The notes under the pieces are model-generated. The model had not been told where the DNA came from and made no database searches. It saw only the letters and a program-made list of their open reading frames with translations. A program made the position numbers and the translations under genes. A DNA stretch of 64,000 nt, taken from the NCBI RefSeq assembly GCF_009932435.1, contig NZ_BJOU01000001.1, positions 1,736,001-1,800,000 of the forward strand. Direction: 5' to 3'. This DNA comes from Gordonia crocea (GTDB taxonomy: Bacteria > Actinomycetota > Actinomycetes > Mycobacteriales > Mycobacteriaceae). Below, in pieces: positions 46,627-50,444 of the stretch; positions within the stretch are counted from its first letter, which is position 1; each line of letters starts with the position of its first letter.

Positions 46627-48000
46627 ATGAGTGGCGTCCCGGCCGTGGTCATCGCCGCGCCGGCGTCGGGCAGCGGCAAGACCACCGTGACCACCGGGCT
46701 GATCGGCGCACTGAGCGCCGCCGGGCGCACCGTCGCGCCGTTCAAGGTGGGCCCGGACTACATCGACCCCGGCTACCACGCCCTGGCCTCGGGCCGCCCC
46801 GGGCGCAACCTGGACCCCAACCTGGTGGGGGAGCCGCTCGTCCCGGCCCTGTTCGCCGCGGGGAGCGTGGGCGCCGACATCGCCGTCGTCGAGGGGGTCA
46901 TGGGGTTGTTCGACGGTCGGATCACCCCGGATTCGCCGGCCGGCGGCTTCGGTTCGACCGCACACGTCGCCGCGCTGTTGGGTGCCCCGGTGGTCCTCGT
47001 CGTCGACGCGGCCGGGCACAGCCAATCGGTGGCCGCACTGCTGCACGGGTTCATCGGATTCGACCCCGGGATCCGGATCGCCGGAGTGATCCTCAACCGG
47101 GTCGGGTCGGACCGGCACGAAGAGGTCTTGCGGGCCGCGGCGGAATCGGTCGGGCTGCCGGTCCTGGGGGTGCTGCGCCGCGACGACGCGCTGGCGGTGC
47201 CCTCCCGACACCTGGGGTTGATCCCGGCAGCGGAGCGCTCGCCGCAGGCACGGGCGGCAGTGGACGCGATGACCGCGCTGGTCGGGGCGTCGGTGGACGT
47301 CGAGGCGGTGGCCGCCGTCGCGGGCGCCGGCCCCGTCGTCGAGGCGTGGTCGGCGGTCGACGCGGTGGGGGACCCGGTGGCCGGGCGACCGGTGGTGGCC
47401 GTGGCCTCGGGCGCGGCGTTCACCTTCGGCTATCCCGAGCATGCCGAGTTGTTGGCGGCGGCAGGCGCACGGGTCGTCGAGTTCGATCCGCTGTCGGACA
47501 CGCTGCCCGACGACACCGCCGCGCTCGTGATCGGCGGCGGGTTCCCCGAGGAGCACGCCGAATCGTTGAGTGCCAACGCACCGCTGCGCGCCGCGGTGCG
47601 CGCCCACGTCGACGCCGGTCGGCCGGTGCACGCCGAATGCGCGGGCTACCTGTACCTGACTTCGGGGGTCGTGCGGGACGGCCGCACCGGCCCCGCGCTG
47701 GCCGGGGCGCTGCCGGTCACCGCCGAGTTCGGCCCGCGGCTGTGCCTGGGCTACCGCGACGGTGTCGCCCTGGCCGATTCGGTGCTGTACCGGGCGGGGG
47801 ACCGCGTCACCGGGCACGAGTTCCACCGCAGCACCGTCGAGGCGGGACCGGCCCCGGCGTGGGGGTGGCAGGCCGACGGGGCCCGGGTGGACGGCCACCT
47901 GTACCGCGGGGTGCACGCCTCGTTCCTCCATGTGCATCCGGCCGCGGTACCGAGGGCGATCGCCAGATTCGTCGCCGCGGCGGCGGGAACGAAGGACTGA
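46627..48000 (+). CDS. cobB: Cobyrinate a,c-diamide synthase
   Basis: Glutamine-dependent amidase (457 residues) acting on hydrogenobyrinic or cobyrinic acid. The ATP domain has [20 protein letters not shown] and [20 protein letters not shown]; the glutaminase domain has [14 protein letters not shown] (Cys) and [16 protein letters not shown] at 46627 follows cobO by 19 bp. Its stop codon overlaps the devS start. Confidence 0.95.
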
Positions 48001-49688
48001 TGGACAACCCGATATCGGCCAACCTGGACCACCTGCACGCCACGCTCAACACCCTGGCCCGACACAGCCTCCGCCCCGACAAGGCCCGCGACCTGCTCGA
48101 GTCCGTTCTCGTGGTCAGCCAGGGGCTCGACCTCGACGAGGCGCTGCAGCGGATCGTCGACGTCGCCGCCCGCGTCCTCGACGCCCGCTACGTGGCGCTC
48201 GGCGTCCGCGCCGCCGACGGCGGCCTGCGGGAATTCGTCTACACCGGCATCAGTCCCGAGGTGCGGGCCACCATGGGCTCGCTACCGCACGGACGCGGCG
48301 TCCTCGGCCTGCTCATCAACGAGCCGCAGGTCCTGCGGATCACCGACCTGTCCACCCATCCGTCGTCGGTGGGCTTCCCGCCGAACCATCCGCCGATGCA
48401 CAGCTTCCTCGGTGCGCCGATCCTCATCCGCGGCGAGGTGTTCGGCAGCATCTATCTGACCGAGAAGCGGACCGCCGACTCCTTCTCCGCCGTCGACGAG
48501 GCGCTCATCGGGGTGTTGGCGGTGGCCGCGGGCATCGCCGTGGACAACGCCCGCGGATTCGAGCGCGCGCGGATCCGGCACACCTGGATGGAGTTGATCG
48601 CCCGCCGCGGTGCCGAGCCGCTGGCCGGGGTCAGCCTGGTGGCGAACCTCAACAACATCTGCGCCGACGTGGCCGAACTGACCGAGGCGCGTGCGGTGTA
48701 CGTCTACCAGACCGAGGACTCCGCGGCGACGCTGCGCGCCAACTCGGGATGGCCGGGCACCGTCGACGCGGTCCGCCTCGGCGAGACGATCACCGAGTCG
48801 GCGCAGCTGCGCGTCCTGCCCGACGACGAGGTACCCGGGTGGGGTGACCGCGACGACGGTTGGGTCACCATCGTGCCGCTGGTGCGCGGCCCCTGGGTGT
48901 ACGGCGCCATCGTGATCCACCAGGACGTCAAGCCCGACTGGGAGGCCGAGGAGCGCTCCGGCCTCGCCGGCGTGGCCGAGGTCGCCTCGCTGGCCATCGC
49001 CTATGCCGAGCGGCGGGAGATGGGCCGCCGGTTGGAGGTCCTGGAGGACCGCCACCGGATCGCCCGGGACCTCCACGACCACGTCATCCAGCGGCTCTTC
49101 GCCATGGGGCTGACCCTGCAGGCGCTGACCGTGGCCCGCGACGGCGACGACGACGCCGACGGCGGGCTCTCGGCCCAGATGCAGCATGAGCGCCTCACCC
49201 AGGTCCTCAACGACCTCGACGGCACAATCGCGCAGATCCGCACGTCGATCTTCGACCTGCAGACCGCCGACCCGTCGCGCACCCCGACGCTGCGCCGTCG
49301 CGTGCTCGCCGTCGTCGGACAGGTCTCCGGGCACGCCGAGGTCACCCCGATGGTGCGGTTCGACGGGCCGGTCGACACCGTCGTCATCCCGGAACTGGCC
49401 AGCCACGTCGACGCGGTGGTCCGCGAGGGGATCAGCAACGCGCTGCGGCACTCCGGCGCCGATCGGATCGAGGTGCGCGTGGTGGCCGAGCCCCGGGCGG
49501 GCGAACTGATCGTCGAAATCACCGACGACGGTCGCGGCATCACCCCCGGGGTGCGCCGCAGCGGGTTGGAGAACCTGCGGATGCGCGCCCAGGAGTGGGA
49601 GGGCGAGTTCTCCGTCGGCCCCGGGCTCAACGGCCGCGGCACCCGGTTGGTCTGGCAGGTACCGCTCGTCGAGCGCAAAACCGACTAA
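48000..49688 (+). CDS. devS: DevS/DosT-type GAF sensor histidine kinase
   Basis: A 562-residue kinase resembling mycobacterial DevS (DosS), an O2/NO/CO or redox sensor. The first GAF domain (about 40-175) keeps His130 in [16 protein letters not shown], aligning with the haem-binding His149 of DevS. A second GAF domain (about 200-345) follows, then the HisKA_3 box [19 protein letters not shown] with phospho-acceptor His359, and an HATPase domain ([18 protein letters not shown] and [10 protein letters not shown]). The ATG overlaps the cobB stop (TGATG type), so it is translationally coupled to cobalamin genes. Haem binding is inferred. The partner is the convergent devR next door. Confidence 0.92.
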
Positions 49689-49711
49689 CTCCGATTGGTC
49701 ATCGGCGCTTG

Positions 49712-49752
49712 TGCCGAGGTCTGTGACCACCTGGCGACAGCAGACCTCGGCA
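49712..49752 (+). terminator. Bidirectional terminator between devS and devR
   Basis: A perfect 12-bp stem, TGCCGAGGTCTG (49712-49723) with CAGACCTCGGCA (49741-49752), enclosing a 17-nt loop in the convergent gap. Confidence 0.75.
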
Positions 49753-49790
49753 TAGTGGGTGGTCGGGCGGAATCGCTCAGCCGGGGGCAC

Positions 49791-50444
49791 TCATGAGTCG
49801 CGCTGGGAGGCCTTCGTCGCCAGGACCGCGACCTGCGTGCGGCTGGACAGGTCGAGCTTGGCCAGGATCCGGGTCACGTTGTTCTTGATCGTCTTCTCCG
49901 CCAGGTGCATGCGCTTGGCGATCAGGCGGTTGGTGAGCCCCTCGCCGATCAGGTCGACGATTTCGCGCTCGCGGTCGGTGAGCTTGGCGAACGGATCACC
50001 GGGGCCGGTGCTGCGGCCCCGCAGGCGTTCCATCAGGGCGGCGGTGCTGCGCTGGTCGAGCAGGTTGCCGCCGGCGGCGACGGTGCGCACCGCCGAAACC
50101 AGGTTCTGGCCGAGGATCTGCTTGAGCACAAAGCCCGACGCGCCGGCCATGACGGCGGCCAGCAGCGCGTCGTCGTCGGCGTAGCTGGTCAGCATCAGAC
50201 AGTGCGTATCCGGGCACCGGGACCGCACCTCGCGGCACAGTTCGACGCCGGACCCGTCGGGCAGTCGGACGTCGAGGACGGCCACATCCGGCGGGTCGTT
50301 GGTGATACCGACGAGCGCCTCGGCCACATTGGCCGCCTCACCGATCACCGTGATGTCGCCGGCGGTGCCGAGAAGGTCGCGCAAACCGCGTCGGACCAGC
50401 TCGTGATCGTCGACGATGAAGACGCGGACCGAGGATTGGGGCAT
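49791..50444 (-). CDS. devR: DevR/DosR-type response regulator (NarL family)
   Basis: A 217-residue two-component regulator. Receiver: VFIVDDHELVRRGLRDLLG, phospho-acceptor Asp58 in DVAVLDVRLPDGSGVELC, Thr86 in LMLTSY and Lys108 in GFVLKQ. A LuxR/GerE helix-turn-helix follows: LTDREREIVDLIGEGLTNRL, IAKRMHLAEKTIKNNVTRIL and AKLDLSSRTQVAV. It is close to mycobacterial DevR throughout, including EGLTN and AEKTxKNxVxRxLAKL. The ATG at 50444 lies 6 nt after TACCGT on the minus strand, so it is probably leaderless. Paired with the convergent devS and divergent from the desaturase. Confidence 0.92.
   Translation of the reverse strand: MPQSSVRVFIVDDHELVRRGLRDLLGTAGDITVIGEAANVAEALVGITNDPPDVAVLDVRLPDGSGVELCREVRSRCPDTHCLMLTSYADDDALLAAVMAGASGFVLKQILGQNLVSAVRTVAAGGNLLDQRSTAALMERLRGRSTGPGDPFAKLTDREREIVDLIGEGLTNRLIAKRMHLAEKTIKNNVTRILAKLDLSSRTQVAVLATKASQRDS

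Follow-up and report, generated by a model that had tools for sequence, protein, structure and literature searches.

We analyzed a 64,000-nucleotide stretch of the 3.78 Mb genome of Gordonia crocea (contig NZ_BJOU01000001.1, positions 1,736,001 to 1,800,000; hereafter the window, with positions counted from its first letter) and found a gene pair of the DevS/DevR type, together with a desaturase gene, desA, between the cobalamin gene cobB and cysG. We consider it probable that DevS is a DosT-like haem sensor made from the cob run, and that it acts with a separately transcribed DevR that would control both devR and desA. The gene order, the key residues and the boxes in the devR-desA gap are conserved among relatives, and the sensor belongs to a lineage shared with Rhodococcus. 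The features that bear on this reading are as follows.

44018..45979, plus strand: chelatase-like gene (AAA + VWA), taken as the start of the cob run
45990..46607, plus strand: cobO, corrinoid adenosyltransferase (Pfam CobA_CobO_BtuR, 8.7e-60; 5' end not fixed)
46627..48000, plus strand: cobB, cobyrinate a,c-diamide synthase (alternative in-frame upstream start at 46570)
48000..49688, plus strand: devS, DosT-like GAF-GAF histidine kinase, 562 amino acids (aa)
48129..48542, plus strand: DevS GAF-A, predicted haem domain (aa 44-181; His130 codon 48387-48389)
48657..49001, plus strand: DevS GAF-B (aa 220-334; Pfam GAF_3)
49050..49268, plus strand: DevS HisKA_3 domain (aa 351-423; His359 codon 49074-49076)
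49404..49667, plus strand: DevS HATPase_c domain (aa 469-556; Pfam)
49791..50444, minus strand: devR, response regulator, 217 aa (Asp58 codon 50271-50273)
50473..50492, plus strand: DevR-like box 1, a weak copy, in the devR-desA gap
50496..50515, plus strand: DevR-like box 2, 23 bp after box 1
50549..51577, plus strand: desA, FA_desaturase_2 family (Pfam, 1.5e-66), divergent from devR (further in-frame starts at 50483 and 50513)
51883..53148, plus strand: cysG-type uroporphyrinogen-III methyltransferase gene with an NAD-binding N-terminal domain

A preliminary description of the locus had proposed that devS is coupled to cobB and that devR is convergent on devS. Both hold: the cobB stop codon (TGA, 47998-48000) and the devS start codon (ATG, 48000-48002) have one base in common, and minus-strand devR (49791-50444) faces plus-strand devS, with both frames open. 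It had also proposed that sensor and regulator are transcribed apart, which agrees with the orientation of the genes. We would expect devS to be cotranscribed with cobB.

The sensor DevS

DevS has the Pfam architecture GAF-GAF-HisKA_3-HATPase_c that is found in the haem-GAF sensor kinases DevS and DosT, and in PDB alignments its GAF-A domain matched the GAF-A domains of DosT (2vzw, 9.6e-50) and DevS (2w3d, 1.5e-40). To number M. tuberculosis DevS in the PDB alignments, we anchored it on the E87G and E87A mutant chains, which appear in PMC4082495. The haem ligand His149 of M. tuberculosis DevS aligned with His130 of the window protein, as had been proposed, and the distal Tyr171 aligned with Tyr152. 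The phosphorelay residue His359 is intact within the motif RDLHDHV. Among the window and 60 further loci, His130 and His359 were each present in 61/61 and Tyr152 in 60/61. The domains, aligned residues and PDB matches support the assignment of a DevS/DevR-type haem sensor pair, in which GAF-A would bind haem and O2, NO or CO, and the kinase would respond to these gases.

The predicted haem pocket is closer to that of DosT than to that of DevS. The window GAF-A is 61% identical to DosT and 49% identical to M. tuberculosis DevS, and the position of DevS Glu87 is Gly (Gly68 in the window protein) in all 61 loci. Seven GAF-A positions that separate DosS from DosT are given in PMC4082495. At these, window DevS has five DosT-type residues, no DevS-type residues and two that are neither (Ala71 and Ser150), so that with Gly68 it falls outside the Glu87-type DevS subtype. 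Each of the 37 DevS proteins encoded at cob loci has four to six residues of the DosT type and none of the DosS type. In other clades, DevS-like proteins also score two to seven DosT-type, and zero or one DosS-type, of the seven; the set is therefore not specific to DosT, and Glu87-type DevS is the odd one out. Oxygen handling like that of DosT would be expected for window DevS.

The regulator DevR

DevR consists of a receiver (Response_reg) and a GerE domain, and its best PDB match was 3c3w (2.9e-71). It is 58% identical to M. tuberculosis DevR, with all ten residues that we checked kept. Asp58, named as the phosphorelay residue in the preliminary description, is intact and corresponds to Asp54 of M. 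tuberculosis DevR in the PDB alignment. The positions that we take to be DevR Lys179, Lys182 and Asn183 are Lys, Lys and Asn in the window protein. With its receiver and GerE domains, phospho-acceptor Asp, DNA-contact residues and boxes at its promoter, it has the features of a DevR/DosR response regulator, and it would be expected to receive phosphate from DevS.

Gene order in Gordonia and other genera

The gene order of the window recurs across the genus, which argues that it did not arise by chance. In 35 of 36 other Gordonia genomes cobB lies upstream of devS on the same strand (the relative L096 has no cobB). The devR gene is on the strand opposite to devS in 31/36 relatives, and in three more devR and desA are inverted together; 34/36 have desA on the strand opposite to devR, and 34/36 have cysG on the devS strand. 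With start codons chosen by script, 36 cobB-devS gaps were measured, counting that of the window, and in 25 of them the two genes overlap or abut. Two long gaps (301 and 729, in L072 and L089) arise from a cobB split between frames. The cobB-devS locus is old within Gordonia. In the three relatives with the inversion (L077, L079 and L081), the whole devR-desA block lies reversed between devS and cysG, and the gap that bears the boxes is retained.

Outside Gordonia, devS, devR and desA occur with no cobB match within 7 kb in four Rhodococcus loci (L233, L234, L237 and L239), and a sister-genus locus (L311) has devS, devR, a box, desA and cysG all present. Another genus of the same family (g23) has cysG directly after cobB in four of four loci. 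The remaining 25 non-window cobB loci that were read have neither direct cobB-cysG neighbors nor devS adjoining cobB. We read devS-devR-desA as the older unit, with cobB as a probable later neighbor. In a distant family of the order, one contig (G049:C21; L124 and L202) carries both cobB and, approximately 9 kb downstream of it, a DevS-like gene.

DevR-like boxes in the devR-desA gap

Boxes 1 and 2 resemble what we take to be the M. tuberculosis DosR consensus. Cooperative binding to Dev boxes that are closely packed is described for M. tuberculosis promoters in PMC3029386. We compared 35 devR-desA gaps, those of the window and 34 relatives (L072 and L099 were left out). Box 2, which was found with a seeded consensus, keeps GG-C-TT and C-C in 35/35 gaps. 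It scored at least 12 in 35/35 with a position weight matrix (PWM) trained on the same gaps; with a leave-one-out PWM it did so in 33/35, with a minimum of 11.7. The window box reached 19.2 when the PWM was built from the 32 gaps that do not belong to the three-species group of the window. In the leave-one-out controls, scores of at least 12 were found upstream of the chelatase gene in 0/35, of devS in 0/37 and of cysG in 0/34 cases, and in 2/700 shuffles (the cut cysG of L100 and chelatase stretches of <300 bp were left out).

Tandem and single-box patterns were derived from these gaps or from known box sequences. The tandem pattern, taken from the gaps, had 28 matches in 27 of 41 Gordonia genomes, and its reversed control had 1. 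Of these matches 22 lie in the devR-desA gap, one (in G007) lies beside a devR-like open reading frame (ORF), one precedes a COX1 gene (G033:C15) and four were not placed.

Boxes near the devR start were also found outside Gordonia. The four Rhodococcus loci had scores of 14.0-24.6 (≤1/300 shuffles), those of L233 and L234 being 14.6-24.6, and three loci of two other genera (L320, L321 and L323) had scores of 15.2-18.3 (0/100 shuffles). L237 and L239 have a short devR-desA gap with the box inside it. In these arrangements the box appears to go with devR, and with desA where desA is adjacent. Since the box is near devR in every arrangement looked at, control of devR by its own phosphorylated product (DevR~P) is the surer of the two predictions; control of desA is likely. 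Binding of DevR to the boxes and the direction of regulation are predictions.

Lineage of the pair

The preliminary description had pointed out that a second, closer devRS pair in the genome would count against the assignment. We looked for one in the window genome and found none: a search with DevS returned itself and one match of 31% in the kinase domain, and the next best match to DevR was 38%. At least nine of the 36 Gordonia relatives have a second DevRS pair (L101-L109), most of them closer to mycobacterial DevS. The nine fetched are 39-41% (DevS) and 54-60% (DevR) identical to the window pair.

We built a DevS tree of 61 rows, including 14 of the 37 cob-locus proteins (full-length M. 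tuberculosis proteins, DosT among them, were left out). The 14 cob-locus rows formed one group (100/100), nested in a group of 22 rows with eight from Rhodococcus (100/100), and the mycobacterial L265 and L300 grouped with eight of the nine Gordonia second copies. Window DevS therefore lies outside the clade of the mycobacterial rows of this tree (L265 and L300) and does not qualify as their orthologue. In GAF-A alone, the four second copies that we looked up are 57-61% identical to M. tuberculosis DevS, compared to 49% for the window protein; to DosT they are 60-66% identical, compared to 61%, a small difference. By sequence, window DevS is a member of a Gordonia-Rhodococcus lineage apart from mycobacterial DevS.

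A proposed circuit

In the mechanism that we propose, devS would be expressed as the last gene of the chelatase-cobO-cobB run, and the level of sensor would thus probably be set by the cob operon; devR would be expressed from its own promoter next to desA. Loss of O2 from the GAF-A haem, or binding of NO or CO to it, would lead to phosphorylation of His359, and the phosphate would pass to Asp58 of DevR. DevR~P would then bind the paired boxes in the devR-desA gap, which could serve both genes, and raise expression of devR and, where it is adjacent, of the DesA-type desaturase. Induction of desA would lead, we propose, to remodelling of fatty or mycolic acids under O2 shortage.

Several observations weigh against this circuit, or against its reach. 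In 2/36 relatives (L072 and L099) devR and desA are absent from the devS stretch that was read, and box 1 is weak in the window. In five loci (L320, L321, L323, L233 and L234) devR and desA are approximately 1 kb apart with the box near devR, and desA is therefore the less certain target. When we scored the 400 bp upstream of desA at 30 desA loci of the family, only five Gordonia-type loci (L307-L311) reached 16, whereas L322 scored 12.4 and L317 scored 7.7. A general link between desA and the box was thus rejected: 23 of the 30 loci lack the consensus in those 400 bp, three of the 23 (L320, L321 and L323) having devR approximately 1.1 kb from desA with the box on the devR side. L322 and, weakly, L317 have a box before desA with no devR within approximately 1.5 kb; over its whole upstream stretch the L317 score is within shuffles (13/100). 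The devR-like match at L318 is just 29% identical.

A wider regulon was also sought in the window genome and could not be shown. The single-box pattern GGGACTTTNGNCCC had 73 matches compared to 7 for the reversed control in 41 Gordonia genomes, with one exact match in the window genome. Looser patterns in the window genome did not rise above control (9 matches versus 10 for one; 89 forward versus 161 for GGGACTWWAGTCCC with ≤3 mismatches), and they too count against the circuit as drawn. The window genome may have a small regulon, or one whose boxes have diverged.

Alternative explanations

The strongest competitor leaves the DevRS mechanism standing and takes its place in the genome to be meaningless: the devS-devR-desA block would have come to lie between cobB and cysG in an ancestor of Gordonia, with devS perhaps read from a promoter of its own inside cobB. 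We regard this neutral neighborhood as a serious possibility, somewhat short of an even chance. The direct cobB-cysG order in g23 and the block's position elsewhere in Rhodococcus favor it, as does G007, in which the devR-like gene and tandem box are approximately 17 kb from devS while devS is still with cobB. The overlapping or abutting junctions (25/36) speak against it, having persisted although DevS of most relatives is merely 52-59% identical to window DevS. So does the uncertainty of the ancestral order, since direct cobB-cysG neighbors were unseen outside g23.

The preliminary description had further suggested that tying the sensor to B12 synthesis links tetrapyrrole supply to gas sensing. 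The adjacency that prompted this stands, with cobB and cysG on the devS strand in most relatives, and the functional link does not gain from the other evidence. The devS-devR-desA trio exists without cobB in the four Rhodococcus loci. B12 riboswitch control was considered and dropped, as no riboswitch reached the Rfam gathering thresholds in window positions 30000-58000. Control of the cob operon by DevR was dropped too: scanning the 500 bp before the first cob gene, in 35 stretches, turned up no DevR-like box, and there was none upstream of devS or cysG. Moreover, cobB and cysG serve corrin and sirohaem synthesis, not haem synthesis. A coupling in which tetrapyrrole supply sets the sensor level, or in which DevR controls corrin and sirohaem synthesis, is thus unlikely; a steady dose of sensor from the cob operon is the most that the data allow. 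It is less likely still, indeed very improbable, that GAF-A has ceased to bind haem and senses another ligand. The moderate identities to DevS and DosT leave room for such a change, but the proximal His and distal Tyr are nearly invariant.

Other boxes and features

We read the genes beside GGGACTTTNGNCCC in 30 loci of the 73 matches, plus L169 and L174, and named them by Pfam for nine proteins and by blastp cluster or by eye for the others. Genes in the 30 loci include those for PEP carboxykinase (PEPCK), PPK2, a pyridoxamine-oxidase-like protein, MspA porins, a flavohaemoglobin-like protein and what is presumably an Rpf-like transglycosylase. Boxes adjoin flavohaemoglobin-like genes in four relatives (L144, L153, L155 and L157; Pfam on L144 only), two of which also have an Rrf2-family gene there (Pfam on L153 only); this suggests a possible link to NO detoxification. 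Boxes lie upstream of PEPCK genes in four relatives (L136, L142, L146 and L152; Pfam on L146 only). A perfect palindrome, GGGACTTTAGTCCC, is at L020:1501-1514 (C11:78455-78468 of the window genome), approximately 130 bp before a porin gene of the MspA family; in a relative (L160), too, a box precedes an MspA gene. In the window, a weak box-like site on the minus strand (53834-53853; score 12.8, in the range of random sequence) is upstream of an SfLAP-like gene.

Within desA there is an antisense match to the Rfam ASdes small RNA (59.6 bits; 50891-50958, minus strand). It probably reflects conserved desA coding sequence, and an actual antisense RNA is possible. Two more desaturase paralogues in the window genome (C1:952291-953271 and C1:1298786-1299622) are 65% and 36% identical, respectively, to the devR-linked desA. 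One small ORF at the end of desA has a match in part of the genus by tblastn or blastp; a Pfam search with it gave no match.

51574..51831, plus strand: small ORF, 85 aa, overlapping desA

Comparison with known systems

M. tuberculosis DosT shares with window DevS a full-length GAF-A match, the proximal His, the distal Tyr and Gly at the Glu87 position. Just as dosT is encoded apart from devR in M. tuberculosis, window devS would, by its orientation, be transcribed apart from its regulator; it differs in being coupled to cobB and next to devR, and in a GAF-A that is 61% identical. M. tuberculosis DevS/DevR resembles the window pair in having DevR-like boxes beside devR and in its DevR, whereas its DevS has Glu87 where the window protein has Gly and none of the DevS-type residues. 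In the mycobacterial loci L265 and L300, devR is upstream of devS on one strand, unlike the convergent genes of the window. OsdK/OsdR of Streptomyces coelicolor shows that DevRS-like pairs occur beyond the mycobacteria, and its box, AGGGCCGATCGGCCCT, is palindromic (PMC5069765). Unlike the split window genes, osdR-osdK is a single operon; the word desaturase is absent from the main text of that paper.

A parallel for desA comes from M. abscessus. According to the accessible text of PMC10034137, desA1 is among its most highly hypoxia-induced DosRS-dependent genes, desA1 (Mab_3354) is by locus tag not beside dosS (Mab_3890c), and dosR is upstream of dosS; for M. tuberculosis that text gives no evidence that DosR controls desA. 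The M. abscessus case would parallel the control that we propose for window desA. Among titles and abstract openings of Creative Commons-licensed PMC literature, including Gordonia with DosR or DevR, we found no description of the locus.

A broader reading, which we offer tentatively and think rather doubtful, is that the core output of the Gordonia-Rhodococcus DosT-type system is an O2-consuming acyl-ACP desaturase, and that the lipid circuit of devS, devR, boxes and desA is an old form of the Dev system. The desaturase would then be perhaps almost the sole output besides devR in the small window genome, M. abscessus would have retained control of desA1 while M. tuberculosis lost it, and the large dormancy regulon would be an elaboration. 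With devS as the last gene of the cob operon, the dose of sensor would stay steady while DevR autoinduces.

The probable circuit of DosT-like sensor and DevR would carry haem-based gas sensing of the Dev/Dos type into an entire genus of mostly environmental bacteria. In Gordonia the genes stand in another order, the sensor is of another lineage, and the conserved neighbor behind DevR-like boxes is a desaturase gene; the proposed path from B12 to gas sensing is tempered. DosRS control of desA1, present in M. abscessus and apparently not in M. tuberculosis, now becomes a testable evolutionary question in environmental bacteria.

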